In this document: positions 17,508 through 39,879 of the stretch, one piece after another
Layout of the letters: every line of letters starts with the position of its first letter
Numbering within the stretch: the first letter of the stretch is position 1
Assembly (NCBI GenBank): GCA_007118445.1
Contig: SKRP01000256.1
Location: 1 to 40,853 of the forward strand
DNA from: Natronohydrobacter sp.
Lineage (GTDB): Bacteria > Pseudomonadota > Alphaproteobacteria > Rhodobacterales > Rhodobacteraceae
Direction: 5' to 3'
DNA: 40,853 nt
Made by a program: the position numbers and the translations under genes
Notes under the pieces: generated by a model
What the model saw: the letters and a program-made list of their open reading frames with translations, nothing else
What the model was told of the DNA's origin: nothing
Databases searched by the model: none

Positions 17508-17533
17508 GGCTGCGGGACTTCCATTTCTATATT

Positions 17534-17555: not shown

Positions 17556-17593
17556 ATTGTTGGGCACGATCTGCAAGATTGGAATGCGCCGCG

Positions 17594-20998: not shown

Positions 20999-21019
20999 TC
21001 GAAATATCTGATCACCCTT

Positions 21020-21046: not shown

Positions 21047-21103
21047 TCCGCTTTGCGCAACCCTTTCTGAGCCGGAATGGGCAGGATGCAGTAAGGGGAC
21101 AAC

Positions 21104-21913: not shown

Positions 21914-21931
21914 CCAACAGTGGAGAAACAC

Positions 21932-22972: not shown

Positions 22973-22997
22973 TAGCCAGGCACAAGGGGGGCAGCAT

Positions 22998-23558
22998 ATG
23001 GTCTTGCGCATCTTCGATCTGCTTCGCACCATCAATCGCGGTATCGCGCTGGTGGTCGGGCTGGGGCTTCTGGCCTGCGTGGGCTATGTGCTGCTGGAAA
23101 TCACCCTGCGGCGACTGGGCTCGTCGCTGGGTGGCACGACCGAGATCACCGGCTATGTGATGGCCGTCACCACCGCCTGGGGCATGGGATTTGCCCTGAT
23201 GGAAATCGCCCATATCCGCATCGAGGTTCTGCGCACGCGGCTGGCGGGCTGGGGGCGTGTGTTCCTCGATCTGCTGGCGATGCTGGCCATGTCCGCGACT
23301 GTGGTCATCATCGCCTTTCGCGCCTGGCCTGTTCTGGCGCGCTCGATCAACAACAATTCGCGCGCCAATACCGTGCTGGAAACTCCGCTCTGGATTCCGC
23401 AAAGCCTGTGGTTCGCAGGCTGGGTCTGGTTCGCACTGATGTGCTGCGCGGTCACGCTGCTGTCGCTGGCGCTGGTGTTTCAGGGACGCCTGGGCGCAGT
23501 CGAACGACGGATCGGCATCCGCAATGAAATCGCGGAAGAGCTGGAGCAGGCAAAATGA
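22998..23558 (+). CDS. TRAP transporter small permease (DctQ family)
   Basis: 186 residues with four hydrophobic segments and the DctQ pattern LLEITLRRLGSSLGGTTEITGYVMAVTTAWGMGFALMEIAHIRIE. It bridges the binding protein and the large permease. AAGGGGGG lies upstream of the ATG. Its stop overlaps the start of the large permease (ATGA). Confidence 0.92.
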   Translation: MVLRIFDLLRTINRGIALVVGLGLLACVGYVLLEITLRRLGSSLGGTTEITGYVMAVTTAWGMGFALMEIAHIRIEVLRTRLAGWGRVFLDLLAMLAMSATVVIIAFRAWPVLARSINNNSRANTVLETPLWIPQSLWFAGWVWFALMCCAVTLLSLALVFQGRLGAVERRIGIRNEIAEELEQAK

Positions 23559-24835
23559 TCCTCTATATCTTCGGCGGCCTGCTGGGGCTGATGGCGCTGA
23601 CCATTCCCGTGGGCATTGTGCTGTTCCTGCTGGGCTTTGGCGTCGATCAGTTCTTCACCCCTTTCCCGCTGATCCGCGGGCTGGGACAATTCGTCTGGTC
23701 CTCGTCCAATTCCTCGACCCTGATCGCCATTCCCTTCTTCGTGCTTCTGGGCGAGGTTCTGGTGCGCGGGGGCGTCGCGGCCAGGACTTATGCAGCGCTC
23801 GATCGCTGGCTGAGCTGGCTGCCCGGCGGGTTGATCCATGCCAATATCGGCACGGCGACCCTGTTTTCCGCGACCTCGGGCTCATCGGTCGCAACGGCTG
23901 CCACAGTCGCCACAGTCGCCATGCCGCAGGCCGAACGTCTGGGCTATGATCCGCGCCTGTTTTCAGGCGCCATCGCGGCGGGCGGCACGCTCGGCATCAT
24001 GATTCCGCCCTCGATCAACCTGATCGTCTACGGGTTTCTGACTGAATCCTCGATCCCGCAGCTTTTTGTCGCCGGGCTGATTCCGGGGCTGATGCTGGCT
24101 GTCGGTTTCAGCATCGTGACCGCGCTGATCTGCCTGATGCGGCCTGAACTGGGCGGAGAATCGCGCCGCTACCCCCTGCGCGAGATGCTGGCCGTGCTGG
24201 TGCATCTGATCCCGATCTTCCTGCTTTTTGCCGCCATTGTCGGCTCGATCTATCAGGGCTGGGCCACCCCCACCGAGGCGGCGGCCGTGGGCGTGGGCAT
24301 GGCCTTCCTGATCGCCGGCGTCTCGGGCGGGGTGAACTGGGCGATGCTGCGCGACTCGATATACGGCACAATGCGGATCACGGCGATGATCATGCTGGTG
24401 GTGCTCGGCGCGGCATTCCTGAACTTCACCCTGTCCAGCGCCGGTCTGGGTCGCGATTTGCGCGCCTTCATGGAGGGGCTGGGATTCACGCCCCTGATGA
24501 CGCTGATGGTGATTGTGCTGATCTATATCGTGCTGGGCTTCTTCATCGAAACATTGTCGCTGATGGTCATCACCATTCCCATCATGGTCCCCATCGTGGT
24601 CGCGCTTGGCTATGATCCGATCTGGTTCGGCATCCTGATGATCGTGCTGGTGGAAATGGCGTTGATCACGCCGCCTGTGGGACTGAATCTCTATGTCGTG
24701 CAAGGCGCGCGACGCGGCGGCAACCTGTCCGAGGTGATGGTCGGCGCGATCCCCTATGCCGGTCTGATGCTCCTGATGGCCTTCGCACTGATAGCATTCC
24801 CCGGGCTGGCGCTCTGGCTGCCTGCCAATCTTTAG
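23555..24835 (+). CDS. TRAP transporter large permease (DctM family)
   Basis: 426 residues with about twelve membrane helices. It contains FFVLLGEVLVRGGVAARTYAALDRWLSWLPGGLIHANIGTATLFSATSGSSVATAATVATVAMP, GGTLGIMIPPSINLIVYG and the C-terminal TPPVGLNLYVVQGARRG, all canonical DctM motifs. It is the Na+-coupled transport channel, partnered by the two preceding genes. Confidence 0.94.
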   Translation: MILYIFGGLLGLMALTIPVGIVLFLLGFGVDQFFTPFPLIRGLGQFVWSSSNSSTLIAIPFFVLLGEVLVRGGVAARTYAALDRWLSWLPGGLIHANIGTATLFSATSGSSVATAATVATVAMPQAERLGYDPRLFSGAIAAGGTLGIMIPPSINLIVYGFLTESSIPQLFVAGLIPGLMLAVGFSIVTALICLMRPELGGESRRYPLREMLAVLVHLIPIFLLFAAIVGSIYQGWATPTEAAAVGVGMAFLIAGVSGGVNWAMLRDSIYGTMRITAMIMLVVLGAAFLNFTLSSAGLGRDLRAFMEGLGFTPLMTLMVIVLIYIVLGFFIETLSLMVITIPIMVPIVVALGYDPIWFGILMIVLVEMALITPPVGLNLYVVQGARRGGNLSEVMVGAIPYAGLMLLMAFALIAFPGLALWLPANL

Positions 24836-24844
24836 GACACGATC

Positions 24845-25519
24845 ATGCCCATGCTCGATTTTCACACTGATCACGGCCCGCTGCGGATCAATATCCAATC
24901 ACTGACCATCGCAGGCTGGACCGGGCGCGACGCGGCGGCTGTCCAGCACCATATCGACGAACTGGCCGCCTTGGGTGTGCCGCCACCTGCGACTGTCCCG
25001 GTCTATTACCGTGCAGATGCAGAGCTGCTGACCCAGGCAGAGGACATTACCGTGCTTGGCTCTGACACGTCGGGCGAGGCCGAACCGCTGCTGGTGGCAG
25101 ATGACAGCGGCACGCTATGGCTTGGTCTGGCCTCGGATCACACCGACCGCGCGCTCGAGGCGGTGTCGATTGCAAAATCCAAGCAGATCTGCGCCAAGCC
25201 CGTTGCGCGAGAGCTGTGGCTCTATGAAGAGATTGCCCCCCATCTCGATGCCCTGCGCCTGCAGGCCAGGATCGTGGAGGATACCGGGGCTGTGGACTAT
25301 CAATCCGGGACATTGCAGCGCATCCGGCCTCTGCCAGAGATTTTGACAGGCTTGCCCGAGGGGCGTCTTGCACCGGGCTCGGTGTTGTTTTGCGGCACCT
25401 TGCCGGTGATCGGTGCAATCCGCCCGGCACGGCGCTTCATCATGCAGCTTCATGATCCGGTACTTGAGCGCACCATCAGCGGCGAATACGGGATCTGCTG
25501 CCTGCCCTTGGTGCATTGA
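24845..25519 (+). CDS. DUF2848 family protein
   Basis: 224 residues. The family is recognised by LTIAGWTGRDAAAVQHHIDELAALGVPPPATVPVYYR, LGLASDHTDRALEAVSIAKSKQICAKPVARELWLYEEIAPHLDALRL and C-terminal VLFCGTLPVIGAIRPARRFIMQLHDPVLERTI. The HTDR-KQ-K-P-W pattern has polar residues suited to catalysis, and the fold may resemble FAH-type hydrolases; the reaction is unknown. It starts 9 bases after dctM and ends the operon. Its presence in a 5-oxoproline/TRAP run suggests it acts on an imported acid (inference). Confidence 0.85.
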   Translation: MPMLDFHTDHGPLRINIQSLTIAGWTGRDAAAVQHHIDELAALGVPPPATVPVYYRADAELLTQAEDITVLGSDTSGEAEPLLVADDSGTLWLGLASDHTDRALEAVSIAKSKQICAKPVARELWLYEEIAPHLDALRLQARIVEDTGAVDYQSGTLQRIRPLPEILTGLPEGRLAPGSVLFCGTLPVIGAIRPARRFIMQLHDPVLERTISGEYGICCLPLVH

Positions 25520-25967: not shown

Positions 25968-27407
25968 TCAGCCCTGCCGCGACACCGGCCAGTCAAATGG
26001 GCGGTCGATACCCGCCATCTTGACACCGGTAAAAGCCGATGCCTCGAAGCTGAGCGCGCGCAGATCCTCGGGTTCCAGATTATGGACCGATGACTTGCCG
26101 CAAGCTTTGGCCAGTGCGGTTACTTCCATGGTCATGGCAGTGAGCATCCGCGCCACGCGCTCGGCACCGGCGGCGACATTCATGCGTGGCTCCAGTCCGG
26201 GATCCTGCGTGGCAATGCCAACCGGGCACATGCCGGTATGGCAGTGATGGCATGCACCGGGGCTGGTGCCAAGCTTGCGGTAGTCCTCCTCGTAGCGCGG
26301 CGAGTTGCACCCCAGCGCCATCATCGCACCATTGCCAATCATTACGGCATCAGCCCCGAGTGCCAAAGCTTTGGCGACGTCGGTTCCCGTGCGAATGCCA
26401 CCGGCCACGACGAGCGAAACCTTGCCGGACATGCCGCATTCGTCAAGCGCCTCGCGCGCGGCGCGGATTGCGGTCAGGGTCGGGATGCCAGTATGGTTCA
26501 GCAACAGTTCGGGAGAGGCCCCGGTGCCGCCTTCGGCACCATCCACCACGACCACATCAGCGCCAGCCTTGGCGGCCACTGCCACATCATAGCGCGGCCG
26601 CGTTGCTCCCATCTTGATGAAGATCGGAACCTTGTAATCTGTGGCGATGCGCAACTCCTCGATCTTGACCGCCAGATCGTCGGCACCCAGCCAGTCGGGG
26701 TGACGGATGGTCGAGCGCTGGTCAACCCCCTCGGGCAGGGTGCGCATCTTCGAGACGCGCGGGCTGACCTTCATGCCCAGAAGCAAACCGCCAGTGCCAG
26801 GCTTCGCCCCTTGGCCCACAACCAGTTCCAGCCCGTCGGCGCGGCGCAGGTGGTCCAGATCAAGCCCATACCGCGCTGGCGACATCTGGTAGACCAGCGT
26901 TTTCGAGGCCGCGCGCTCTTCCTCGAGCATGCCGCCCTCACCTGTGCAGGTCATGGTCCCGACTTTCGAGGCACCGTGGCCCAACGCTTCCTTGGCACTG
27001 GCCGACAACGCGCCAAATGACATCGATGCGATGTAGATGGGAATATCCAGCATGATCGGGTTTTCGACCAATCCGCGCCCGCCGCCCAGCACAGTGCGCG
27101 TGTCACAGCTTTCGCGGTAGCCTTCGAGCGGCAGCCGGGTCAGCGTGGCGGGGACGAAAGTCAGATCATCGAATGTGGGCAGGCGCTGGTTGAAACTGTT
27201 ATAGCCGCGCACCTGATAGCGCCCGAGCTGCGCCAGAGCATGGGCTTCCGAGATCGCCTCGGGAGTCCAGCGCGCTGAACCGCCCTGATCATAAGACGAG
27301 GGCACGCCCGCCGGTCGGCCCTCGATGGCCCCATCGCCGAATTGCACCAACTCCTCGGACGCGTCCTCAAAGGGAAAGCGATAGGGAGTGTTCATATCAT
27401 CAGCCAT
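25968..27407 (-). CDS. FMN-binding glutamate synthase-domain protein (MgsC/GlxD-like)
   Basis: 479 residues equivalent to the FMN/Fe-S synthase domain of GltB as a separate protein. Landmarks are PIYIASMSFGALSASAKEALGHGAS, GEGGMLEEERA, VGQGAKPGTGGLLLGMKVS, VDGAEGGTGASPELLLNHTGIP and the cysteine cluster ACHHCHTGMCPVGIATQ, whose last two Cys keep the C-x4-C spacing of the 3Fe-4S site. In N-methylglutamate synthase the equivalent subunit joins an amine to glutamate carbon. It overlaps the GXGXG gene by 16 bases and ends the three-gene operon. Start ATG 27407 (MADDMNTPYRF) is chosen because the extension overlaps further upstream coding sequence. Confidence 0.88.
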   Translation of the reverse strand: MADDMNTPYRFPFEDASEELVQFGDGAIEGRPAGVPSSYDQGGSARWTPEAISEAHALAQLGRYQVRGYNSFNQRLPTFDDLTFVPATLTRLPLEGYRESCDTRTVLGGGRGLVENPIMLDIPIYIASMSFGALSASAKEALGHGASKVGTMTCTGEGGMLEEERAASKTLVYQMSPARYGLDLDHLRRADGLELVVGQGAKPGTGGLLLGMKVSPRVSKMRTLPEGVDQRSTIRHPDWLGADDLAVKIEELRIATDYKVPIFIKMGATRPRYDVAVAAKAGADVVVVDGAEGGTGASPELLLNHTGIPTLTAIRAAREALDECGMSGKVSLVVAGGIRTGTDVAKALALGADAVMIGNGAMMALGCNSPRYEEDYRKLGTSPGACHHCHTGMCPVGIATQDPGLEPRMNVAAGAERVARMLTAMTMEVTALAKACGKSSVHNLEPEDLRALSFEASAFTGVKMAGIDRPFDWPVSRQG

Positions 27408-28108
27408 GCTTTTGCATCCCTGCTCTGGAAATACCACAGCCGCTCACCGGCCACGATTCGCCGCCATGCGCGTGAGCGGTCAGAAAGCCCGAGCGGGTCG
27501 AGAATCGCCTCCACCTCGGCGACCTGCTCGGCGCTCGGTTCGGTGATCACCGCATCGACACCCAGATCCTCGACATCGCCGCAGACCCAGACCTCACCCT
27601 GCCAGAGCGCATCAGCGCAACTTGGCCCGGCACCGCCCAGGGCGATGATCTTGCCACCATGCGCCATGAAGCCCGACTGATAGCCCAGCTTGCCTTCGAC
27701 GACGATGGTGCCACCCTTCATGGCGACACCGGCACGTGGGCCGCAATCGCCGCGCACATGGATCAGCCCGCCCAGCATCGCAGCACCCACTGACATGCCA
27801 GCATAGCCGCCAACAGTGATATGGCCCGCCGACATCGCCTCGCCGCAGCCCCAGCCCGCATTGCGTTCGACGGTGATCCGCGCGCCGGTGTTCAGCCCGC
27901 CACAGTAATAACCGACCGAACCTTCGGCATGCAGCTCGCAACCCGGCGGCAGGCCCACGCCGAGATTGTGCCGCGACAATGTATTGCGCAGCACCATGCG
28001 TTCCCCGGCCTTCGCGGCCTTCTGGATGTCCTCATGCACCGCGCGGATGGGGCGTTCGCCCACGTCGATCACTGTTTCGGCCATCGTTCGTCCAGGCGCT
28101 CTGTTCAT
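27392..28108 (-). CDS. GXGXG-domain glutamate synthase-like subunit (MgsB/GlxC-like)
   Basis: 238 residues forming a right-handed beta-helix of Gly-rich repeats: GGLNTGARITVERNAGWGCGEAMSAGHITVGGYAGMSVGAAMLGGLIHVRGDCGPRAGVAMKGGTIVVEGKLGYQSGFMAHGG. This is the C-terminal domain of GltB as a stand-alone subunit, structural in glutamate synthase and in the N-methylglutamate synthase complex. ATG 28108 overlaps the amidotransferase stop (ATGA). An internal ATG at 28084 (MAETVIDV) is an alternative. Confidence 0.87.
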   Translation of the reverse strand: MNRAPGRTMAETVIDVGERPIRAVHEDIQKAAKAGERMVLRNTLSRHNLGVGLPPGCELHAEGSVGYYCGGLNTGARITVERNAGWGCGEAMSAGHITVGGYAGMSVGAAMLGGLIHVRGDCGPRAGVAMKGGTIVVEGKLGYQSGFMAHGGKIIALGGAGPSCADALWQGEVWVCGDVEDLGVDAVITEPSAEQVAEVEAILDPLGLSDRSRAWRRIVAGERLWYFQSRDAKAWLMI

Positions 28109-29052
28109 GCTGCCACCCTCTGGTTCCCGACAGTCCAGATGCCGTGCAAGCTGGGCCCATCATGATTGATGACGTCGATGCCGTCGTCGTTATAGACGCG
28201 TCGCACGGCCTGTTCCTCCGTGCCCGCTGCAATGGCACCGTTCTGGTCTATCAACACCAGCGGCTTCATCGCGAAACGGTCCTTGGCGAAGCCAATGGCC
28301 GAGGGCGTGGCGATCATGTAGGTGAACACACCATCGATCTCGTGAATGGAGCGGGTCAGCGCCTCTTCCATGCTCAGCCCCTGTTTCATACGGTCGGACA
28401 CCCAGACCGCGATCAGCTCGCTGTCATTCCACGTGAGGAAGCGATAGCCCTTGCGCTCGAGTTTCTCGCGCCAGGTGTAGTAATCGGTGATCTGCCCGTT
28501 ATGAACGATGGCCACGTCCGGGAAGGGGCGCGCCCAAAACGGGTGGCTGGCATTCGGGCGCACATCACTTTCGGTCGCCAGACGCGCATGGCCAAGCCCA
28601 TGCGTGCCTGTCATCTCGCGTATGCCGTGCTTGTCGGCGACGGCATTGGCACCGCCGACATCCTTGATGATCTCGAGCGAGCGGCCCACTGACTGCATCT
28701 CCAATCGCGCGGCTATCTCATCGGCTTCGGCCACCCATGCGGCCATATCAACCGGGTCACTGACGATCATGCGCGCAAGATAATGTTGGCTGCGACTGTT
28801 GTCCCAGCTTGGCTCTTCGATGACATCCGCACCGTTGTTGCGCAGGATGGCGCGGAAATCGTTCAGATCCTGACCCATCCTCGAACGATCGAACCCCATT
28901 GCGCGCACAATGTAGCCGTTTTCCCGCGGAGTGCTGTAGACAGCAAAGCCTGTTGAGTCGGCACCACGATGCTCCTGTGCAGCCATCAAGGCCACCAGAT
29001 CGCGGCCAACCGGCCCCGGCGCTCCCAGAATTCGCCCGGCGATTCCACACAT
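28105..29052 (-). CDS. Class II glutamine amidotransferase (MgsA/GlxB-like)
   Basis: 315 residues. It starts MCGIAGRILG, exposing the nucleophilic Cys after Met removal, then has QEHRGADSTGFAVYS, GLGHARLATESDVRPNASHPFW and DVAIVHNGQITDYYTWREKLERKGYRFLTWNDSELIAVWV, the standard Ntn-type glutaminase pattern. It would release ammonia from glutamine or handle a gamma-glutamylamide for the two following subunits. I place the start at 29052; the ORF-track start at 29067 adds five residues ahead of the catalytic Cys and would block processing. Promoter region contains the 16-bp palindrome at 29080-29095. Confidence 0.9.
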   Translation of the reverse strand: MCGIAGRILGAPGPVGRDLVALMAAQEHRGADSTGFAVYSTPRENGYIVRAMGFDRSRMGQDLNDFRAILRNNGADVIEEPSWDNSRSQHYLARMIVSDPVDMAAWVAEADEIAARLEMQSVGRSLEIIKDVGGANAVADKHGIREMTGTHGLGHARLATESDVRPNASHPFWARPFPDVAIVHNGQITDYYTWREKLERKGYRFLTWNDSELIAVWVSDRMKQGLSMEEALTRSIHEIDGVFTYMIATPSAIGFAKDRFAMKPLVLIDQNGAIAAGTEEQAVRRVYNDDGIDVINHDGPSLHGIWTVGNQRVAA

Positions 29053-29076
29053 GTCTAGCCTCCTCATCGGATATTA

Positions 29077-29095
29077 TGTATACTGTATACAGTAT
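29077..29095. promoter_or_regulatory. Operator copy 1: TGTATACTGTATACAGTAT
   Basis: A perfect 16-bp palindrome ATACTGTATACAGTAT (29080-29095) inside a 19-base sequence repeated exactly at 36783-36801. It lies between the divergent amidotransferase operon and the GntR gene. GTATAC cores are typical of FCD-type GntR sites, so the adjacent regulator is the likely ligand-responsive binder. Confidence 0.8.
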
Positions 29096-29910: not shown

Positions 29911-30324
29911 TCATGACAGCGCGATCTTGCCGGTATCGTCGTGGATCACGGCGTCAATCAGGATTTCCACAGTCATGCCCGGTGTCGTCAGCCCTGCCTC
30001 GACCGCGGACATCACAGGTTCGATCCCGGCGAAAACCTCTCCATGCGCCCGGACGAAGCCGGCCGCATCTATCTGCAAGCTGCGCAGAAAGGCCGTGCAG
30101 CGCACGACATGGCGCATCTCGGCACCGACATCCGCCAGCGCCTGCTCGATCCGGCCCAGCGAGTAGAGCGTCTGGGCATAACTGTCATCAGGGGCGTGCA
30201 GCTTGCCGCTGGGCTCGATGGCCGTGGTGCCTGCGACCCAGACAAAAGGCCCGATACGCAGGGCGCGGGCATAGGACGCCGCACGCTCGAAGCGGCCCCC
30301 ACCGTGGCTGCGACGCACCACCAT
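29911..30324 (-). CDS. RidA/YjgF family protein
   Basis: 137 residues with the RidA fold: ARALRIGPFVWVAGTTAIEPSGK, DDSYAQTLYSLGRIEQALADVGAEMRHVVRCTAFLRSL and PVMSAVEAGLTTPGMTVEILIDAVI. In imine-deaminating RidA the segment is PARS with an essential Arg; here it is PVMS, so the Arg is Met, as in Rid subgroups without proven deaminase activity. It could still bind or process an imine/enamine released by the amine-oxidising flavoprotein. Its ATG overlaps the stop of the malate-dehydrogenase-like gene (TGATG), making it the last gene of the BMC operon. Confidence 0.87.
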   Translation of the reverse strand: MVVRRSHGGGRFERAASYARALRIGPFVWVAGTTAIEPSGKLHAPDDSYAQTLYSLGRIEQALADVGAEMRHVVRCTAFLRSLQIDAAGFVRAHGEVFAGIEPVMSAVEAGLTTPGMTVEILIDAVIHDDTGKIALS

Positions 30325-31511
30325 CAGCTCGCAAGCCTTGTGCGTATGGCCTCGGCGGCGGCGTGCAGCGATGCGCGCTCGGCATCGGTGAGCGAGATTT
30401 CAGCCACCTCGATCAGCCCGCCTTCGCCCAGATAACCGGGCACGCCCAGCACCACGCCATCAAGACCGAACTCGCCCATCAGCATGACCGAGACCGGGAC
30501 CGCACCCGAGCGCGCGCCGCGTAAATGGTCCATGACCTCGACAGAAGCATGCGCCGGGGCTATCACGGCCGAGCCCGTGCGCTTGAGCGCCACAACGTGC
30601 CCGCCGCCGGTGATTGCATCGCGGACGCAGGCAGCGATCTGGTCAGGCGACAGGAACGCCGAAAGCGGTCTGCCCTTGATCGTCGAGGCCGACGGGATCG
30701 GTGCCATCTCTTCGCCATGGCTGCCAAGGGTCAGCGCTTCGACATCGCCCGGATCGACCACTGCCGCGCGTGCCAGGGCGTGGCGAAAGCGACTGCTGTC
30801 CAATGTGCCCGCCATGCCCAGAACGCGATTGCGTGGAAAGCCCGTTGCCTGCAGCATTTCATATGTCATTTCGTCAAGCGGGTTGGTCACCACGACGACC
30901 ACCGCTTGCGGTGCGTGATCGGCAATTGCAGCGGCAGTCGCATGGATGACCCGGCGGTTCACTTCGATCAGATCGGCCCGTGTCATGCCCGGCGCGCGCG
31001 GTCGCCCCGCCGTGACCAATACCACATCCGCGCCCTCAACCATGGCCAGTGATTGCCCGCCACGAATACGGCAGCGGCTCCGGGTGATGCCCGACGCATG
31101 CGCGATATCAAGCGCGAAGGCTTCGGCCAGTCCGGGTGTGATGTCGATGAGCACGATCTCTTCAGCCATGTCGGCCATGGCACATAGATGCGCGGCATGG
31201 CTGCCCACCCCGCCCGCGCCGACGAAAGCAATCCGCCCGAAGCGGCGTGGCTGGCGCGCACGGCGCGCAGACGGCGCGATCCAGCGCGGCGAGCGCCGCC
31301 ATAGCGCGCGACGCAGCGAGGTTGCGCCATCGGTAACTTCGGGCTGCGGGCGCGGCAACGGCCCGTCGCGCAGCGCAATCCCCAGCCGCTCGGCCTGATC
31401 GCGTGCCTCGGGTGTCACGATATCGCCTGGCATCACTTCGACATGCTTGCGCTGTCGACGACGGGCATCGCGGATATGCTCGGCCCCGATGACACGGCGC
31501 GACGGTTTCAT
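30324..31511 (-). CDS. Malate/lactate dehydrogenase-like enzyme with BMC-type N-terminal extension
   Basis: 395 residues, about 85-90 longer than a normal malate dehydrogenase. The core starts near residue 93 with NAD loop GAGGVG (98-103). It keeps malate-type substrate Arg residues in AGRPRAPGMTR (R172, R178), VVTNPLDEMTY (N210), GTLDSSRFR (D238, R241) and catalytic His in LGSHGEEMAP (H265). The extension contains VMPGDIVTPEARDQAERLGIALRDG, similar to TPxAR-x-A-x-GI segments in other BMC enzymes, then a long Arg/Pro-rich linker, so it probably targets the enzyme to the shell. Its start overlaps the BMC-T stop (ATGA). A role in regenerating NAD+ inside the compartment from a 2-oxoacid is inferred. 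Confidence 0.85.
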   Translation of the reverse strand: MKPSRRVIGAEHIRDARRRQRKHVEVMPGDIVTPEARDQAERLGIALRDGPLPRPQPEVTDGATSLRRALWRRSPRWIAPSARRARQPRRFGRIAFVGAGGVGSHAAHLCAMADMAEEIVLIDITPGLAEAFALDIAHASGITRSRCRIRGGQSLAMVEGADVVLVTAGRPRAPGMTRADLIEVNRRVIHATAAAIADHAPQAVVVVVTNPLDEMTYEMLQATGFPRNRVLGMAGTLDSSRFRHALARAAVVDPGDVEALTLGSHGEEMAPIPSASTIKGRPLSAFLSPDQIAACVRDAITGGGHVVALKRTGSAVIAPAHASVEVMDHLRGARSGAVPVSVMLMGEFGLDGVVLGVPGYLGEGGLIEVAEISLTDAERASLHAAAEAIRTRLAS

Positions 31512-32131
31512 GCCGGACGCACCCCTTCAATGGCCTCGATTGCGCCGCTAGCGGCATCGATGGCAGCTTTCACATCATCCTCGGCCCCGCAGATGAAGAG
31601 CCTGCCGAACCGGCCAACGGCGCGCACTTCGACGATATCGATATTGGCGGCCTTTTCGGCCTCATTGGCGGCATGAGCGATATAGGCGGCGGGCGCGCAT
31701 TCAATGATCCCCAGCGTCTGACCCGGCACCACCAGCGCGCCCTTGCGCCATTTGTTGAGAAGCTGCGCCTGATAGGGCTCGACCGAGGTGATGATCTGAG
31801 TGGAGGCGACCTCGGGGCGGATACGGTCATTCAGGCTTTTGCCAAGTGCGGCGAGAATGGCCTCACGCGCCGCCGAAACCTCGGCATTGGAAGGGCTGCG
31901 CAGGATGAAGAAGCCGAATTCGCGCTCGACAAGCTGTGTCGTCGCCTCGACCGAACTGGCCTTGAGGGCACGATCGATCAGGGTGAACACACCATTTCCG
32001 GGGGCAAATTCTCCGATAAGCACCGTGTCGCCCGCAAGTGGCACCGAGCCTTGCACTGTGGCCCCGTTGAAAGCGGCGAATTTGGGTTGCAGATTGTCGA
32101 TCTGTAACAGCGCGCGAATGATGGTGGACAT
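31508..32131 (-). CDS. BMC-T: tandem-domain microcompartment shell protein
   Basis: 207 residues made of two BMC folds. The second shows SVEPYQAQLLNKWRKGALVVPGQTLGIIECAPAAYIAHAANEAEKAANIDIVEVRAVGRFGRLFICGAEDDVKAAIDAA, typical of the BMC domain (GRFGRLFICG...DV.AAI). The first half (res 1-95) is a divergent copy with IGEFAPGNGVFTLIDRALKASSV. Tandem-domain proteins form pseudohexameric trimers, often with a gated central pore that may pass cofactors. It starts 2 bases after the aldehyde dehydrogenase stop and overlaps the next gene. Confidence 0.9.
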   Translation of the reverse strand: MSTIIRALLQIDNLQPKFAAFNGATVQGSVPLAGDTVLIGEFAPGNGVFTLIDRALKASSVEATTQLVEREFGFFILRSPSNAEVSAAREAILAALGKSLNDRIRPEVASTQIITSVEPYQAQLLNKWRKGALVVPGQTLGIIECAPAAYIAHAANEAEKAANIDIVEVRAVGRFGRLFICGAEDDVKAAIDAASGAIEAIEGVRPA

Positions 32132-32133
32132 GG

Positions 32134-33516
32134 TCAGCCTCCATAAACCTCATAGATGTCGCGCCACGGTCGGTTTTCCCAGGCAACGCGTTTGATATTG
32201 ATCAGATGCAGGGCCGTCACATTGTCCGAGGTTATCGACCCCGACCAGGTGCCGGTGCCCAGCATGAAGGAGGGCTCCAGATCAGTGGAAAAGCCCATGC
32301 CGCCCATGATCCCGGGCGTGTTTACCAGCACCCGCCCCACGGGCAGGCGTGAGTATTCGGCCACCACAGTCGGGTCATCGGCATGAATCACTGCCGTATG
32401 GCCCCAGCCCTCGAATTTCGCGATGCTTTCGGCCATGGTGATGCCAGCGGCGCTGTCGCGCGCCTCGTAGAAGGCCAGCACCGGGTTCAGTTTTTCGGCC
32501 GAAAGCGGTCGTTGCCAGCCGATTTCATGTTCTTCACTGACCAGACAGCGGATGCGTGGCGGCAGTGAGAACCCGGCCTTTTCGGCCAGCGCCTGCGGGC
32601 TCTGGCCGACATTCGCAGGGTCCATGGCCTGCCTGCCCTGGAAAATCACCTGTGCCAGCCGGTCGGCTTCAGCCCGTGTCATGAAATAGGCACCGGCCAG
32701 TTTCATCTCGTGGCGCAATTCGCGCGTGATGGCGGCATCTGCCACCACAGCCTGCTCGGACACGCAGGCCGTGCCGAAGTCGAAACATTTCGAGGTGATG
32801 ATCTGCTCGGCAACCTCGGCCAGTTGTCCGGCCTTGGAGGCATGGACATAGCACGGCACATTGCCCGCACCCACCGCAAGCGTCGGCTTGCCAGAACTAT
32901 AGGCCGCGCGCACCATCGCCGGGCCACCCGTCGCCATGACAACCGAAGTGCGACGGTGGCGCATCAGCTCTGCCGTGCCCTCTATCGTGACCTGATCCAG
33001 GCACTGGATAAGCCCTTTCGGCGCGCCCATGCCTTCGGCCACTTCGGCCATCACGCGCACAGTCTCCATTCCGCAGCCAATCCCGCGCGGATGAGGGGCA
33101 CAAACGATAGCATTGCCTGCCTTCACTGCGCTGAGCACCTTGTAGATGATGGTCGATGTCGGGTTCGTCACCGGGATCAGCGCAGCGACCACCCCCATCG
33201 GCTCGCCAATCGCGGCGATCTTGGCGCGCTCGTCGCGCCACAGCACGCCCAGCGTGGTGATATCGCGCAGCCATTCAGCGACCGAGAGCGCGTTGAACAG
33301 GTTCTTGACCCGCTTGTCGGGAATATTGCCGTAACCCGTCTCTTCGACCGCAAGCCGACCCAGCCGCTCGGCCTCGGGTTCGATGGCGCGGGCCATTGCG
33401 TCAACCATGGCGTCGATATGCGAAGGATCGGTACCCAGAAAACTGCGATAAGCCGCAAAGGCTTTTGCTGCCGCAGCCCGCGCGGCGGCAATAGATTGCA
33501 GGTCTTTATCCATCAA
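32134..33516 (-). CDS. CoA-acylating aldehyde dehydrogenase (EutE/PduP-like)
   Basis: 460 residues. The catalytic Cys251 lies in SKCFDFGTACVSEQ, matching the CASEQ-type acylating group found in BMCs. VTNPTSTIIYKVLSAVKAGNAIVCAPHPRG, GGPAMVRAAYSSGKPTLAVGAGNVPCYV and C-terminal GTGTWSGSITSDNVTALHLINIKRVAW are family landmarks. It oxidises an aldehyde with NAD+ and CoA to acyl-CoA. Unlike PduP it has no separate N-terminal encapsulation peptide and linker; the protein starts at the fold's first helix, and there is no C-terminal extension either. It overlaps the opine-dehydrogenase-like gene by 11 bases. Aldehyde chain length cannot be deduced. Confidence 0.93.
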   Translation of the reverse strand: MMDKDLQSIAAARAAAAKAFAAYRSFLGTDPSHIDAMVDAMARAIEPEAERLGRLAVEETGYGNIPDKRVKNLFNALSVAEWLRDITTLGVLWRDERAKIAAIGEPMGVVAALIPVTNPTSTIIYKVLSAVKAGNAIVCAPHPRGIGCGMETVRVMAEVAEGMGAPKGLIQCLDQVTIEGTAELMRHRRTSVVMATGGPAMVRAAYSSGKPTLAVGAGNVPCYVHASKAGQLAEVAEQIITSKCFDFGTACVSEQAVVADAAITRELRHEMKLAGAYFMTRAEADRLAQVIFQGRQAMDPANVGQSPQALAEKAGFSLPPRIRCLVSEEHEIGWQRPLSAEKLNPVLAFYEARDSAAGITMAESIAKFEGWGHTAVIHADDPTVVAEYSRLPVGRVLVNTPGIMGGMGFSTDLEPSFMLGTGTWSGSITSDNVTALHLINIKRVAWENRPWRDIYEVYGG

Positions 33517-34708
33517 TGCCCCCGTTCAGGATGTCGGCGAATTGCCGTCGGGCCTCGCTGACATCGGTTGCCTGCACGCCGATGGTCTCCAGCCGACGGC
33601 CGGCCCCCGCCAGATTTCGATTGAGCACGACCTGTGCGAGTTCAATCATCGCGGATGTCGCCGGCACTTCACGGCCTGCGCGGGCCGCAGCAGAGACCAG
33701 CGGAATCAGCGAACCTGTCACACCCGCCCGGATTGCCTCGCGCGCGGTGGACTGGTCCGGCACCGGACGCGCGCCGGTGCCGCGCGCGGTGCCGGCAACA
33801 CGCGCAATGGCACCAGCGGCATCAGGCAAATCACGCACGCCGAAATCACGCGCAACGGCGCAACGTTCAGCCCAGAGCCGGGCGATCAGCGCTTCATGCG
33901 CGGGACCGATCAGGGCGCGAAAGGTCGCGTTCGCTTCCAGCGGCACACCGCCCTCTTGCACCAGCGGCCCGCCACAGGGCGCAGCCGGGCCGCCGATCAG
34001 CAGCGCTGGCAGTTCGACCACGGCGCTTGCGTCATCAAAGCCCGAATGCACACAGGACGGGACAGGTCGGCCATTGGGCAACAGGTCACCCACCGCAGCC
34101 AGCGCATCCTCACGCTCCGGGGCCAGACAGGCCAGCGGCACAGGTGGGCAGGCCGAAAGGACCAGCGCATTGCCATCGGTTGATATCCAGTAGGGCGCGC
34201 CCCCGGCCTCGACCAGTGTCAGATCGGCCTGCGCGCCACCGCATTGCAACAACCATGCGACCTCGACTGCGCCCAGCGAACGCGCCTCTGGCAGGAAAAC
34301 CACCTGACCGGGCTGCAATTGATCGGCGAGCACATGCGCATAAGTGCGTTGCTTGTGGAGCGGTCCGCTGAGCACCACCAGTTCCGCCCTGTCCAGCGCC
34401 TCATCAAGCGCGGCGGTGGTGCGGATCGATGGTCCGCGCGACTGGTCGACAGGAAATGAGCCGATAGGCCCTTCGCCGCGCAGGGTAATGGCACCGGCCT
34501 GCCTCAGCGCTGCCAGCTCGGCACCATAGGCCGAGAACAGACGCACCTCGGCACCACCAGCAAGTGCCAGCGCCGCATAGATCTGCCCATCTGGTGCAGC
34601 GCCCAGAACCGCAACGCGGCCTGCAGGTCCGTGCCGGGGCGCAGCTTGCCCGCTGCCTCTGGCACTTGTGAGCGCCTGTGCGAAATCCTCGAAGCCTGAG
34701 CTGGTCAT
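33506..34708 (-). CDS. Opine/octopine dehydrogenase-like protein with putative encapsulation peptide
   Basis: 400 residues. Residues 5-17 (GFEDFAQALTSAR) can form a short amphipathic helix, followed by a Gly/Ala/Pro linker (18-30): the layout of a BMC encapsulation peptide. The rest looks like the octopine dehydrogenase family: Rossmann-type RVAVLGAAPDGQIYAALALAGGAEVRLFS, ADQLQPGQVVFLPEARSLGAVEVAWLL, then a helical domain with ALIGPAHEALIARLWAERCAVARDFGVRDLPDA. The dinucleotide loop GAAPDG lacks the second Gly of GxGxxG, so cofactor binding needs care. Opine dehydrogenases join or split amino acid and 2-oxoacid using NAD(P)H; such chemistry fits an N-substituted amino acid pathway. Assignment rests on pattern recognition, not a search. 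Confidence 0.68.
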   Translation of the reverse strand: MTSSGFEDFAQALTSARGSGQAAPRHGPAGRVAVLGAAPDGQIYAALALAGGAEVRLFSAYGAELAALRQAGAITLRGEGPIGSFPVDQSRGPSIRTTAALDEALDRAELVVLSGPLHKQRTYAHVLADQLQPGQVVFLPEARSLGAVEVAWLLQCGGAQADLTLVEAGGAPYWISTDGNALVLSACPPVPLACLAPEREDALAAVGDLLPNGRPVPSCVHSGFDDASAVVELPALLIGGPAAPCGGPLVQEGGVPLEANATFRALIGPAHEALIARLWAERCAVARDFGVRDLPDAAGAIARVAGTARGTGARPVPDQSTAREAIRAGVTGSLIPLVSAAARAGREVPATSAMIELAQVVLNRNLAGAGRRLETIGVQATDVSEARRQFADILNGGIDG

Positions 34709-34787: not shown

Positions 34788-35099
34788 TCAATCGGCGCTG
34801 CCGCCACCCAGCGCGGCGATCAGCGCCTCAAGCTCGTCATGCGGGCGGGCGATGACATGCACAGCCACCACTTCGCCCACCTTGTTGGCGGCAAGTGCGG
34901 CGGCATCGGTCGCGGCCTTGACCGCGCCGACTTCGCCGCGGATCAGCGTCGAGATAAGACCGCCGCCGGCCTTTGTCTGGCTGACGATGGTCACGCTGGC
35001 GGCCTTGACCATGGCATCCGCCGCCTCAAGCGAGGCAACCAGCCCGCGAGTCTCGATCATGCCCAGTGCACCATGTCCGGGGATGGGTTTCTGCGCCAT
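34788..35099 (-). CDS. BMC-H: hexameric microcompartment shell protein (PduA/EutM-like)
   Basis: 103 residues, single BMC domain. It reads [84 protein letters not shown], close to the family consensus, including the edge Lys in DAMVKAA that locks hexamers into sheets. The pore loop reads KAGGGL where PduA has KIGSGL, so the pore lining lacks the Ser side chain. ATG 35099 (MAQKP) has AAAGGA at 8 bases, better than the ATG two codons upstream. Confidence 0.96.
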
Positions 35100-35150
35100 T
35101 GTCATGTTCCTTTCTTGGGTCGTGTTCTGGGGCGTTGAAGCGAAAAAGGG

Positions 35151-35417
35151 TCAGACCGAGATCTCGTCGATCACGGCAATCAGGGCGGCATCGACCGGCA
35201 GGCCCGCTGCACCGCGCACCACGCGCGCAGCCGATCCCGTCACCATGAGGCAAAGATCGCCACGCCCGGCACCCACGCTATCAACTGCCACGCAGGTGGG
35301 TTCAGAAGCGGGTTTGCCATCCGGCTTCACAGGCTGGACGATCAGGAATTTCTGCCCCGAAAGGCCGGCCTCTTTCAGCGTGGCCGTGGTCGTGCCGATG
35401 ACGCGCACGATCTGCAT
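35151..35417 (-). CDS. BMC-P: pentameric vertex protein (EutN/CcmL family)
   Basis: 88 residues, the normal size. MQIVRVIGTTTATLKEAGLSGQKFLIVQPV, CVAVDSVGAGRGDLCLMVTGSAARVV and DAALIAVIDEI are standard EutN/CcmL features. Pentamers cap the vertices of the icosahedral shell. It is the only BMC-P gene in the window, enough in principle to close a shell with the BMC-H and BMC-T proteins. Its ATG overlaps the stop of the ligase gene (TAATG). Confidence 0.95.
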   Translation of the reverse strand: MQIVRVIGTTTATLKEAGLSGQKFLIVQPVKPDGKPASEPTCVAVDSVGAGRGDLCLMVTGSAARVVRGAAGLPVDAALIAVIDEISV

Positions 35418-36718
35418 TACATGTTCCTCAGATAACGGTCGCGTTCCACAGGAGTAACCTGCGCCTCGACAAAGCCGATCTCGCGCTCGGCCTGCTGGAT
35501 CAGGATCTCCAGCCGGTGCTCACCCAACGCTCGGCGCATCAACTCGGAGCCGCGTGCGACAGACACGGCCTCCGACAGCGACATCGGCAGCGGCTCAGAA
35601 GCCGCGCCAGCCTCACCATAGGCATCACCCGCACAGGGGGCGCCGGGCTCCAGCCCCTGCTCGATGCCATCGAGCCCGGCAGCAATATCACAGGCAAGCA
35701 GGAAATAGGGGTTGCAGTCGGCGGCAGCGTCGCGCCGCTCAATGCGCACAGCGCTGTCCAGCCCTTCGATCGCGCGCAAGCCGACCGTACGATTATCGTA
35801 CCCCCAACTGTTATTGATCGGGCAGAAACTATAGGGCTGGCGGCGACGATAGGCGTTTGGTGTGGTCGATCCCGCAAGCGCAGTTTCGGCCATGTGCCGC
35901 TGCAGCCCGGCGGTGAAAGCCATCCCTGTCGCGTTGAGCTTGCCATCAGAGGCGAAAGCGTTGCGCTCACCCTGCCACAGCGAGTAATGCGTGTGAAATC
36001 CGCTGCCGGATTGGTCAATAAAGGGTTTGGCCATGAAACTGGCCAGATAGCCATGCTTATGCGCCAGCTGCTTGACCAACGAACGGAAAATCACCACCCG
36101 GTCGGCCGCCGACAGAGCATCGTCATATCGGATGTTCACTTCGACCTGACCAGGGGCGTATTCGGGATTCGATTGCTCGATCGGGATGCCCATTTCGTTG
36201 ATCTGCTGACGAATCGGGCCGGGCACATGTTCCATTTCGGCGGCGCGCGCCAGACTATAAACCTGAATGCCGCTGTCTCGGGGCTGCAGCGTCTCCGGGT
36301 CAAGCAGATAGAATTCCAACTCGGTGCCGCATTTTACCTTGTAGCCCATCGCAGTCGCCCGCTCGATCTGCGCGATCAAGGCACCGCGCGGATCAAGTGG
36401 CACCGGCGCGTGATCCATGCCTTCGCCGCGGGCCAGACAGAAAGCGACCCCCGGCTCCCACGGCAGGGCAACAGGCTGGGTCATGGGAAACATATGCATG
36501 TCCGGGTAGCCGTTATCAAAATTAACTGTCGGCGTGTCCCAGACATCACTTGTCATGTCGATGGCGAGCAGCGCAAGCGACAAGGCGTTTCCGCGCTTGC
36601 AGGTCGTGGCCCAATGGCTGGCCGGAATACGCTTGCCGCGAAGTATGCCATTGAGATCACCCATCCCGATCGCCACAGTGTGGGTGCCTTCAGGCAAAGG
36701 AAAATCCTCGTTCTGCAT
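35417..36718 (-). CDS. Glutamine synthetase-like gamma-glutamyl-amine ligase (PuuA/GmaS type)
   Basis: 433 residues. The beta-grasp N-domain (AIGMGDLNGILRGKRIPASHW) is followed by the catalytic barrel: KCGTELEFYLLD, GQVEVNIRYDDAL, SGSGFHTHYSLW, RRRQPYSFCPINNSWGYDNRTVGLR and RIERRDAAADCNPYFLLACDIAAGLDGI, so metal, ATP and glutamate sites are present. Such short, PuuA-like proteins usually ligate glutamate to an amine rather than ammonia. It is the first gene of the BMC operon. GTG 36769 starts too close to the operator; ATG 36718 with AGGAACGGG upstream is preferred. The amine substrate is unknown. Confidence 0.85.
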   Translation of the reverse strand: MQNEDFPLPEGTHTVAIGMGDLNGILRGKRIPASHWATTCKRGNALSLALLAIDMTSDVWDTPTVNFDNGYPDMHMFPMTQPVALPWEPGVAFCLARGEGMDHAPVPLDPRGALIAQIERATAMGYKVKCGTELEFYLLDPETLQPRDSGIQVYSLARAAEMEHVPGPIRQQINEMGIPIEQSNPEYAPGQVEVNIRYDDALSAADRVVIFRSLVKQLAHKHGYLASFMAKPFIDQSGSGFHTHYSLWQGERNAFASDGKLNATGMAFTAGLQRHMAETALAGSTTPNAYRRRQPYSFCPINNSWGYDNRTVGLRAIEGLDSAVRIERRDAAADCNPYFLLACDIAAGLDGIEQGLEPGAPCAGDAYGEAGAASEPLPMSLSEAVSVARGSELMRRALGEHRLEILIQQAEREIGFVEAQVTPVERDRYLRNM

Positions 36719-36782
36719 CCGAAAACCCGTTCCTGACTTTTGGTGGCGCGCGTCAGTTGCGACTTGCACGAACCCTTAATTG

Positions 36783-36802
36783 TGTATACTGTATACAGTA
36801 TA
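36783..36802. promoter_or_regulatory. Operator copy 2: TGTATACTGTATACAGTATA
   Basis: An 18-bp perfect palindrome TATACTGTATACAGTATA (36785-36802); the 19 bases from 36783 equal those at 29077-29095. It sits between the divergent ligase/BMC operon and the flavoprotein gene, in an AT-rich stretch. Strong candidate target for the GntR/FCD regulator at 29183. Confidence 0.82.
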
Positions 36803-36829
36803 TATAATATTGCAACAGGAAAGATTGTC

Positions 36830-37969
36830 ATGCCGCATTCGGAAACCATCGTTGCAGGCGGCGGCATCGCCGGGTTGATGACGGCAATCTCGTTGGCGCG
36901 GCGCGGGCATGGCGTCACCCTGATCGACCGATGGGAGCCGGGTCATGCGCGTGCGTCGTCTTCGGACTACAACCGGGTGATACGTGCCATCCATGGTCGC
37001 GACCATTTCTACACACGCTGGGCGCGCGATGCGCGCCTACGTTGGCTGGAACTGGAGCAAGAAACCGGAGCGAAGCTCTACTATGAGTGCGGCACGCTGA
37101 TACTTGCCACCGAAGGTCATTGCCATTGGGAAGATGACACTGCCGCCACTTTCGATGCCCTGGGCGTGCCCTATCATCGCTACAGCGCCGACGAGATCCG
37201 AGCCTTCTTTCCTCAGTTCGACCCACGGAATGTCAGCTACGCGCTTTATGAGCCCGAAGCAGGCATGATCATGGCGCATCGCGCATTGATCGCTGGTGTG
37301 GCGCTGCTGCGCAGTCTGGGCGGCAAGGTGCGGCGCGGGCGCGTGACCACAGATGCCTCAGAGCGGCCCATGCTGGACGGAAAACCACTCGAAGCCGATC
37401 TCGTCGTCATCGCCACAGGCCCCTGGATGGCCGAGATGTTCCCGCGCACCGTCAAGCCGCTCACCACAGTCGTGGGCGTAAATGTTCTCTACACGTCAAC
37501 CCCGGACGGCTCTGAAGCCTTTGACCAGACACATATGCCCTGCTGGATCGATCATGGCGAGGGGTCGTTCGGGCTGCCGTCGGTCGAGGGGTCGGGCGTC
37601 AAGGCAGCGGTCGTGATCCCTGATCAGATCGATCTCGACAATGACGAGCGACTGATCCGGCAGAAGACGCTGGCGCGCACACGGCGCTACATCGATAAAC
37701 GCCTGCCCGGACTGACAGGGCAGCGCGTCGTGGACAGCAAGTTCAACCAGATCGTGATGACCCCCGACACGCATTTCATCATCGATTTCCACCCCGAACA
37801 CCGCAACGTTCTGCTGGCCGGCGGGTGTTCAGGGCATTTGTTCAAGCATGGCCCGGTTTTCGGCGATTTCGTTGCCGGCATTGGCCTCGGGGATTTCGGC
37901 ACACCGGACAGGTTCCGGCTTGGCCCACGACGCAAACTCTCGCCTGCCGAAAGCCCTTCGGGCCGCTGA
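36830..37969 (+). CDS. FAD-dependent amine oxidoreductase, DAO family (monomeric sarcosine oxidase-like)
   Basis: 379 residues. The FAD-binding ETIVAGGGIAGLMTAISLARRGHGVTLIDRW at the N-terminus and RASSSDYNRVIRAIHG are typical of sarcosine/N-methyltryptophan oxidases, as is the C-terminal HFIIDFHPEHRNVLLAGGCSGHLFKHGPVFGDF. In monomeric sarcosine oxidase a Cys just before this segment binds FAD covalently; the aligned position here (FNQIVMTPD) has no Cys, so FAD is probably non-covalent. These enzymes oxidise secondary amino groups of N-alkyl amino acids, releasing an aldehyde. AGGAAAG precedes ATG 36830. It diverges from the BMC operon and shares its operator, and lacks any obvious shell-targeting tail. 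Confidence 0.87.
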   Translation: MPHSETIVAGGGIAGLMTAISLARRGHGVTLIDRWEPGHARASSSDYNRVIRAIHGRDHFYTRWARDARLRWLELEQETGAKLYYECGTLILATEGHCHWEDDTAATFDALGVPYHRYSADEIRAFFPQFDPRNVSYALYEPEAGMIMAHRALIAGVALLRSLGGKVRRGRVTTDASERPMLDGKPLEADLVVIATGPWMAEMFPRTVKPLTTVVGVNVLYTSTPDGSEAFDQTHMPCWIDHGEGSFGLPSVEGSGVKAAVVIPDQIDLDNDERLIRQKTLARTRRYIDKRLPGLTGQRVVDSKFNQIVMTPDTHFIIDFHPEHRNVLLAGGCSGHLFKHGPVFGDFVAGIGLGDFGTPDRFRLGPRRKLSPAESPSGR

Positions 37970-38289: not shown

Positions 38290-38883
38290 TCAATGCGCCT
38301 GCGCCAAGCCTGAATCCTGCAATTGCTCCTGTTCTGGCAGATCGGCCAGCGAGGTCAGATCAAACGCAGCGAGAAACGCGTCGGTTGTCACAAACGTATA
38401 TGGCGCACCACGCCTGGGTTCGCGCGGGCCGGGTGCGATCAGACCACGCTCGGATAACCGACCTATCAGATCGCGGCTGATGTCACGTCCGAAAATTTCG
38501 CGCAATCGATCCCGGCTGATGGGCTGATGATAAGCAATCGCGACCAGCACTGTGACATCATTCTCGCTCAGGTTCAGCGCCTGATCACCAATATCGGCCG
38601 CGGCGCGGATGACCGGGGCATAGGCCGGACGCGTTCGCAGCAACCACCCATTGCCCGATTTGACAATCTCATAGGGACGTGTTTCCAGTTCAGCCGCCAG
38701 ATCCTCAATCAGCAAATCAAGCGAAACCACCTGCCCTATCACCCGCGCCAGATCCTCGCGCGCGACAGGTGAAGCACTCGCGAACAAGACCGCCTCGATC
38801 CGTTTCATCCATTCGCGCCAGCGCAGTTCCGGTGGCAGGTCGGACAGGTCGCGGTCAAAATCGGGGGCACCTGTTCGGGCCAT
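38290..38883 (-). CDS. ScpB-like protein (SMC-Scp complex subunit family)
   Basis: 197 residues with the two winged-helix domains of ScpB: WMKRIEAVLFASASPVAREDLARVIG...AAELETRPYEIVKSGNGWLLRTRPAYAPVIRAA and LNLSENDVTVLVAIAYHQPISRDRLREIFGRDISRDLIGRLSERGLIAPGPREPRRGAPYTFVTTDAFLAAFDL. ScpB bridges ScpA and SMC in chromosome segregation. No scpA is next to it; it follows DUF1403 and a recombinase, so it is probably an accessory paralogue on a plasmid or island. Start ATG 38883 comes one base after the DUF1403 stop; the longer frame overlaps that gene. Confidence 0.85.
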   Translation of the reverse strand: MARTGAPDFDRDLSDLPPELRWREWMKRIEAVLFASASPVAREDLARVIGQVVSLDLLIEDLAAELETRPYEIVKSGNGWLLRTRPAYAPVIRAAADIGDQALNLSENDVTVLVAIAYHQPISRDRLREIFGRDISRDLIGRLSERGLIAPGPREPRRGAPYTFVTTDAFLAAFDLTSLADLPEQEQLQDSGLAQAH

Positions 38884-38884
38884 G

Positions 38885-39775
38885 CTACAGCCCGTATAGG
38901 CGAAACGTGTCACGCCCGGTCAGTTCGCGCAAAGCACTTAGGCTGACCAGCCGGTCACACAGGCGCCGCGCGGCGCGATCCGACATCAGCGCGGTCAGTG
39001 TCGATGGCGCGATCGCGTCTCGGGTCAGGAAGATTTCAACGGCCTGCGCCGCCTGTTTACTGCGCAATCTCGGGGCCACCTGTCGCAGATGCGCAGCACG
39101 GCGTGACAGTTCTGAGGCCATTGACAGGGCACGGGCAACTGACTTGACAATCGCATTGTGACAGAAAAGCCGCAAATCAACACCGCGCGCCGTCAGCGCA
39201 ACGCGCGGCACAGCGCAGCCCAAGAGCGGGATCAGATACCGCCAGCCCATGGCGCGGGCAAGGGCAGCATCGGCCAGGATCAGGGCCATGGAATATGCAC
39301 GCGGGGTATCGGCCAAAACCATCTCGAGAACGCCAGCGGCCTGCACAACAGGTGCGTCTTGGCCCTGCTTGTCGCGAAACTCGATTTCAAGCGCACATGA
39401 CTCTCGCATGCTGTTTATCAGATCGACCTCCGACAATGCGCGCAGCGTCGCGCCATTCCAGGCCAATGCGATTTCTCCGGCAGGGCCGGGCAGTTCGGAT
39501 GCGCGAAGCAGGCACAGAATATCGCGCAAAGCGCTTTCCCGCTCTCGCCGCCCCGAAAGCTGTGCGCAATGTGCGCCTGCCGACAAGGCCAAGCGCGCGC
39601 GCCACAACGCGGCTGGTAAGGTCGGGTTCTTTTGCGCCATGTCCAACAGCGCCAAGGCTGCACCCGACGAAAACCCAGCATTTTCCGATGTTTGATGTAG
39701 GTTTCGCGCCAGCCAGTTCGGCAGGCCATGAGGCCAAGGATCGTATGCTGTATCGGGGTTCGGGTCGCGCGTCAT
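38885..39775 (-). CDS. DUF1403 family protein
   Basis: About 296 residues from ATG 39775 (MTRDPNPDTAYDPWPHGLPNWL). The helical, Ala-rich body with FSSGAALALLDMAQKNPTLPAALWRARLALSAGAHCAQLSGRRERESALRDILCLL and VEIFLTRDAIAPSTLTALMSDRAARRLCDRLVSLSALRELTGRDTFRLYGL matches DUF1403 as I recall it, a protein commonly next to an scpB-like gene in Alphaproteobacteria. Function is unknown. It is the first gene of the pair and is divergent from the recombinase. Codons upstream of 39775 in the frame overlap the inverted-repeat site and are probably non-coding. Confidence 0.75.
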   Translation of the reverse strand: MTRDPNPDTAYDPWPHGLPNWLARNLHQTSENAGFSSGAALALLDMAQKNPTLPAALWRARLALSAGAHCAQLSGRRERESALRDILCLLRASELPGPAGEIALAWNGATLRALSEVDLINSMRESCALEIEFRDKQGQDAPVVQAAGVLEMVLADTPRAYSMALILADAALARAMGWRYLIPLLGCAVPRVALTARGVDLRLFCHNAIVKSVARALSMASELSRRAAHLRQVAPRLRSKQAAQAVEIFLTRDAIAPSTLTALMSDRAARRLCDRLVSLSALRELTGRDTFRLYGL

Positions 39776-39848
39776 GATTTTGCATATCCCATGACGGCGG
39801 ATAATGCCAGTAATAGTGAAAAAAGCGCCGCATATTGCTGTTCGCCAA

Positions 39849-39879
39849 AATGTCCGGTAAGTTTGCATTATCGGACATT
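39849..39879. repeat. Inverted repeat with tyrosine-recombinase core geometry
   Basis: AATGTCCGGTAA-GTTTGCA-TTATCGGACATT: 12-base arms with one mismatch and a 7-base spacer, as in Xer/integrase core sites. An extra half-site TTACCGGA (39909-39916) repeats eight arm bases in inverted orientation. It lies between DUF1403 and the recombinase start. It could be a recombination site or an operator for the divergent pair. Confidence 0.5.

Follow-up and report, generated by a model that had tools for sequence, protein, structure and literature searches.

An opine-dehydrogenase-fold protein with altered catalytic positions and a candidate encapsulation peptide in a Rhodobacteraceae microcompartment locus

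What does a relative of the opine dehydrogenases do among the genes of a bacterial microcompartment (BMC)? The question is raised by a locus in the window, that is, the whole stretch of 40,853 nucleotides of Natronohydrobacter sp. DNA that was analysed. The original prediction described the gene of the opine-dehydrogenase-fold (ODH-fold) protein without giving a strand; the open reading frame is real, and we place it on the minus strand (Table 1). Starting from a divergent promoter at about 36.8 kb, the gene order is glutamine-synthetase-like (GS-like) ligase, BMC-P, BMC-H, ODH-fold protein, aldehyde dehydrogenase, BMC-T, malate/lactate dehydrogenase, RidA; the ODH-fold gene is thus the fourth of the run, and a separate amidotransferase/GXGXG/FMN unit follows RidA. 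The GS-like ligase probably starts at 36718. The BMC locus is adjoined at 17501–25519 by a cluster that, by eye, resembles the 5-oxoprolinase PxpBCA, together with a LysR-type regulator, a TRAP transporter and further genes, and downstream of the locus, at 38290–39868, a ScpB-like gene overlaps a DUF1403-like gene (likewise by eye).

Table 1. Features of the microcompartment locus, in window positions
Feature	Positions	Strand	Basis
FMN glutamate-synthase-domain subunit (MgsC/GlxD-like)	25968..27437	-	
GXGXG subunit (MgsB/GlxC-like)	27392..28108	-	
Class II glutamine amidotransferase (MgsA/GlxB-like)	28105..29067	-	
Operator TGTATACTGTATACA, upstream of the synthase-like trio	29077..29091		
RidA/YjgF family protein	29911..30324	-	
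Malate/lactate dehydrogenase with EutQ-like N-terminal segment	30324..31511	-	
BMC-T shell trimer (CcmP-like double BMC)	31508..32131	-	
CoA-acylating aldehyde dehydrogenase (EutE/ACDH type); no encapsulation peptide at either terminus	32134..33516	-	
Opine-dehydrogenase-fold protein P0001, 400 aa	33506..34708	-	sequence homology, alignment, AlphaFold model, Foldseek
Gly329, position of catalytic Asp297 of 1BG6	33722..33724	-	phmmer, MAFFT, hhalign concordant
Glu232, position of catalytic His202 of 1BG6	34013..34015	-	phmmer, MAFFT, hhalign concordant
Residues 36-41, dinucleotide-loop position GAAPDG	34586..34603	-	alignment with outgroups
Residues 16-30, variable Gly/Ala/Pro-rich linker	34619..34663	-	dN/dS, low pLDDT
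Residues 1-15, conserved amphipathic helix, candidate encapsulation peptide (GFEDFAQAL)	34664..34708	-	conservation, hydrophobic moment, model
BMC-H shell hexamer	34788..35105	-	
BMC-P (EutN/CcmL) shell pentamer	35151..35417	-	
Glutamine-synthetase-like ligase, candidate gamma-glutamylamide synthetase	35417..36769	-	
Operator palindrome TGTATACTGTATACA, divergent GS/oxidase promoter	36783..36804		
FAD amine oxidase, monomeric sarcosine oxidase family, divergent	36830..37969	+	

The relation to opine dehydrogenases is real, as follows from a sequence match, a fold search and a domain shared by most of the family. The only PDB structure matched by sequence is 1BG6 (residues 32–381, E 2.2e-7), the N-(1-D-carboxylethyl)-L-norvaline dehydrogenase of Arthrobacter 1C (CENDH/ArODH), which belongs to the opine dehydrogenase family. 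The Pfam domain Octopine_DH (PF02317) is below threshold in the window protein itself (19.6 bits at a cut-off of 30) and is matched at E ≤ 0.01 in 12 of the 13 family members. The AlphaFold model, built with 13 homologues, has a pLDDT of 82.9 and a pTM of 0.83, and its top Foldseek match is again 1BG6 (E 6.7e-20, prob 1.00, TM 0.72/0.82), the next being the octopine dehydrogenases 3IQD and 3C7D. Foldseek and Pfam together give a two-domain fold with a helical Octopine_DH domain. The window protein shares with 1BG6 the order of the two domains, Rossmann and then helical, a near full-length alignment and the GRxLExLG region near the C-terminus. Hence structure prediction against octopine dehydrogenase, the check proposed for the initial resemblance, yielded an opine dehydrogenase fold with 1BG6 ranked first, not an unrelated one.

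The active site differs. The His–Asp dyad is conserved among opine dehydrogenases from any organism (2024 study, PMC10787698), and both residues are kept in 1BG6 and in all eight proteins of the outgroup, which are opine-dehydrogenase-family proteins from other Alphaproteobacteria. In the BMC-linked protein His202 of 1BG6 is replaced by Glu, and Asp297 by Gly. The former position is Glu in 12 of the 13 BMC-linked homologues and Asp in one, and the latter is Gly in 12 and Ala in one, so that the dyad is absent from all 13; three alignment methods agree on this, the replacement being confirmed by profile–profile alignment (hhalign). The dinucleotide loop is also changed. GxGxxA/G is kept in most of the family, but position 5 is Asp or Glu in every BMC-linked protein, an acidic residue that sets them apart from 1BG6 and from the outgroups with their GGGHGA and similar loops. 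The degenerate form GAAPDG, pointed out in the original prediction, is confined to the window protein and L002, while most of the family has GGGxDA; the family-wide oddity is the acidic position 5. The end of beta-2 carries Ser, where 1BG6 has Asp.

Many charged or aromatic residues (R121, R143, E149, E167, W174, R282, R292, R314 and R327) are invariant in the 13 sequences, R143 being an Arg in a Pro-Gly loop that distinguishes the BMC-linked family from 1BG6. Many charged residues of the putative cleft region, as placed by the alignment, are conserved. Since the His–Asp pair is lost and the dinucleotide loop departs from the usual form, but the fold and the charged residues are conserved, opine-dehydrogenase chemistry is most likely absent, and the window protein is unlikely to be active as an opine dehydrogenase. 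The changes in the loop, beta-2 and the catalytic positions speak against an ordinary NAD(P)-dependent reaction but fall short of proving the protein dead, as Glu/Asp232 is fixed and charged residues are invariant. The constraint on position 232 (Glu in 12, Asp in one) rather suggests a working ligand-binding or catalytic site. The original prediction had left a choice between a real oxidoreductase and a scaffold. With the pair lost and the cofactor loop acidic in 13 of 13 proteins, an active opine dehydrogenase finds no support, and a scaffold, itself a conjectural role, fits better.

The N-terminus is the second unusual feature. All 13 BMC-linked proteins have an extension of about 25–30 residues relative to 1BG6, whereas the non-BMC outgroup proteins lack the helix extension and start at or a few residues from the first Rossmann strand. 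In the AlphaFold model a helix is formed by residues 4–15 (residues 1–22 are of low confidence), and residues 16–30 make a low-confidence linker. F6 and F9 are invariant in the 13 sequences, A12 is conserved in 85%, and the hydrophobic moment is above that of shuffled sequences (fraction at or above ≤ 0.02) in 11 of the 13. In comparison with the nearest relative, L002 (81% overall identity), helix residues 1–14 have a dN of 0 at a dS of about 0.97, and dN/dS is 0.68 in linker residues 15–29 and 0.11 in the protein body, all these values being rough, with dS near saturation and only 14 codons in the helix. Encapsulation peptides have been described as a short amphipathic helix with a flexible linker, which docks in the groove between shell hexamers (PMC11157265), and the pattern seen here, with a helix apparently under strong selection and a linker under little, fits this description. 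The suspected encapsulation-peptide-like N-terminus is thus borne out, and the helix proved to be conserved among the homologues.

The PduP, PduD and PduL cargo proteins likewise have a short terminal amphipathic helix and a flexible linker, and there, as here, the gene is clustered with BMC-H/T/P genes and an acylating aldehyde dehydrogenase. The differences are that our helix is shorter and Phe/Ala-based, and that the peptide is carried by an ODH-fold protein, the aldehyde dehydrogenase having none. With about 12 residues the helix is short, and some of the known encapsulation peptides exceed its Phe/Ala pattern in hydrophobicity; both points count against the lumen-anchor reading preferred below. 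The BMC-H protein keeps, in a comparison by eye, the AMVKAA and AATDA helix motifs of the peptide-binding groove of PduA. In the malate/lactate dehydrogenase, the EutQ-like segment covers residues 6–51, and the catalytic domain is preceded by a basic stretch that is likewise conserved; the N-terminal part of this protein is possibly a second shell-targeting element.

The ODH-fold protein is present in 12 of 397 sampled Rhodobacteraceae genomes, and a close BMC-T (at least 76% identity) is found in the same 12. Together with L002, a Pararhodobacter MAG, this makes 13 genomes (G214 and L003, the latter from the cultivated Phaeobacter marinintestinus UB-M7, are the same locus), and in all 13 the gene order of the window is fixed, with the oxidase divergent. 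Hence the gene clusters with shell genes across genomes, as cargo genes do (13 syntenic, 12 co-occurring). In eight other Rhodobacteraceae genomes (G010, G029, G115, G216, G257, G325, G352 and G389) the only BMC-T is a different, paired one of about 34–43% identity, encoded by two tandem genes of a different microcompartment; G014 and G228 have this other microcompartment in addition to the present type. Outside the family, no orthologues were found at E 1e-25 or better in a 399-genome phylum sample, and a 385-genome class sample gave only remote opine-dehydrogenase relatives with the catalytic residues kept. No plasmid relatives were found by tblastn.

The neighbouring genes resemble those of a known amine pathway. 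The N-methylglutamate pathway of methylamine-using bacteria (GmaS, MgsABC) includes a GS-like ligase and an amidotransferase/GXGXG/FMN trio, and both are present here: the ligase in all syntenic loci and the FMN subunit of the trio in 12 of 12 genomes, in several on a different contig or far away. This subunit is 51–59% identical to its nearest further paralogues in the same genomes. Unlike in the N-methylglutamate pathway, the genes here go together with those of a microcompartment, of an acylating aldehyde dehydrogenase and of a flavoprotein of the monomeric sarcosine oxidase type, and no MgdABCD-like genes were seen in the window. The trio is joined by a gene for a class I glutamine amidotransferase in 8 of the 13 genomes (L018:18955-19635, L016, L019, L022, L025, L058-L060), but none was seen in the window. 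At its C-terminus the FAD amine oxidase has a tail, ESPSGR, that is invariant in 13 of 13 genomes.

The window holds two copies of the palindromic operator TGTATACTGTATACA, and 100 shuffles gave no such match; with one mismatch allowed, the operator is found in 11 of 12 genomes. Its sites are mostly at the divergent promoter, upstream of the trio and in front of a Liv-type ABC transporter. Three genomes have the transporter elsewhere, on other contigs, and there the operator lies just upstream of the Liv-type orthologue. A few further sites lie outside these places. By eye the operator is GntR-like. The common operator at the BMC operon, the trio and the transporter suggests a single regulon that takes in the shell, the ligase, the synthase trio, the oxidase and the transporter. 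A search with the binding protein of the transporter, as a clue to the substrate, yielded only generic relatives of the branched-chain amino acid/urea type.

The glutamate/N-alkylglutamate context assumed in the original prediction is supported by the ligase, the FMN subunit and the shared operator, and the probable function of the microcompartment is the degradation of an amine via glutamate. Here the steps are inferred from family membership, and so is the substrate. The transporter would import an amine-bearing substrate, from which the GS-like ligase would form a gamma-glutamylamide; the trio would turn the latter into an N-alkylglutamate; the FAD oxidase would free glutamate and an aldehyde; acyl-CoA would then be formed, in or at the shell, by the aldehyde dehydrogenase; and the malate dehydrogenase would regenerate NAD+.

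Metabolosomes of unknown function (MIC/MUF; Axen 2014, Sutter 2021) similarly have shell genes and an aldehyde dehydrogenase without an obvious signature enzyme, and a lactate/malate dehydrogenase occurs in the MIC1 and PVM BMC types as well. Neither glutamine synthetase nor glutamate is mentioned in the main text of either catalogue, and that of 2021 does not mention opine genes; the distinction concerns these main texts, and this type of locus may have been numbered before, for instance among MIC2-7. In the literature searched, no paper joined a bacterial microcompartment with octopine dehydrogenase, or with gamma-glutamylmethylamide synthetase. As far as the literature examined goes, an altered opine-dehydrogenase protein with such a helix appears to be undescribed.

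What, then, is the role of the ODH-fold protein? We tentatively prefer, at somewhat less than an even chance, a repurposed, non-canonical lumen protein that would serve the aldehyde dehydrogenase as an anchor or as a ligand-binding adaptor. The protein would have become an obligate part of an amine-degrading BMC in some Rhodobacteraceae; its N-terminal helix would most likely dock into the shell and bring it into the lumen; it would most likely perform no opine-dehydrogenase chemistry and lack redox activity; and its most likely role would be to co-encapsulate the adjacent acylating aldehyde dehydrogenase. The latter has no N- or C-terminal extension, which makes an anchor role for its helix-bearing neighbour attractive. 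An analogy is provided by PduD, which carries the peptide for the PduCDE complex. However, an adaptor is not required, since the aldehyde dehydrogenase of the ARO BMC type is known to have no detectable peptide, and the dN/dS of 0.11 in the body, which shows firm constraint, also counts against this reading. The full scheme, in which an opine dehydrogenase deprived of its chemistry now serves as the peptide-bearing anchor of a peptide-less aldehyde dehydrogenase in an uncharacterised N-alkylglutamate amine-degrading BMC, seems rather unlikely in all its details.

A doubtful but quite possible alternative is a catalytically repurposed lumen enzyme, in which Glu232 replaces His as the acid/base and which is the aldehyde-producing signature enzyme. 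It would cleave or form the C–N bond of N-alkylglutamate, or perform another step, with or without NAD(P). The fixation of Glu/Asp232 in 13 of 13 proteins, the many invariant charged and aromatic residues, the gene position directly before the aldehyde dehydrogenase gene and the similarity of the candidate substrates to opines all agree with such an enzyme. However, the Asp partner is lost, loop position 5 is acidic and beta-2 ends in Ser rather than the Asp of 1BG6; moreover, the regulon includes a separate amine oxidase, by which the aldehyde could be set free already.

We consider it improbable that the protein is a non-encapsulated regulator or adaptor, whose helix binds another protein of the locus, e.g. 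the GS-like ligase or the aldehyde dehydrogenase, and not the shell. In favour of this stands the conservation of the helix as a binding element for a putative partner. Against it, cargo is classically laid out in just this way, with a helix and linker on a gene that lies between those of BMC-H and the aldehyde dehydrogenase, and the motifs of the groove by which PduA binds peptides are preserved in BMC-H. An ordinary NAD(P)-dependent opine dehydrogenase inside the compartment, as the near full-length homology and the fold match to 1BG6 would suggest, is strongly disfavoured and was rejected, both catalytic residues being lost in 13 of 13 proteins and the dinucleotide loop altered. Finally, a decaying remnant without function is hardly credible: the protein is among the faster-changing ones of the locus (dN 0.135 against L002, compared to 0.039 for the aldehyde dehydrogenase), but this reading is contradicted by intact genes in 13 of 13 genomes, an overall dN/dS of 0.12, invariant residues and fixed synteny.

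Many metabolosomes have no assigned substrate. Here the gene set, its conserved companions and the shared operator link a glutamate-conjugation amine pathway with a shell, so that an unknown function is translated into testable steps. In turn, the altered protein would be either an enzyme fold reused as a part of the compartment or an opine-dehydrogenase active site rebuilt around a glutamate.
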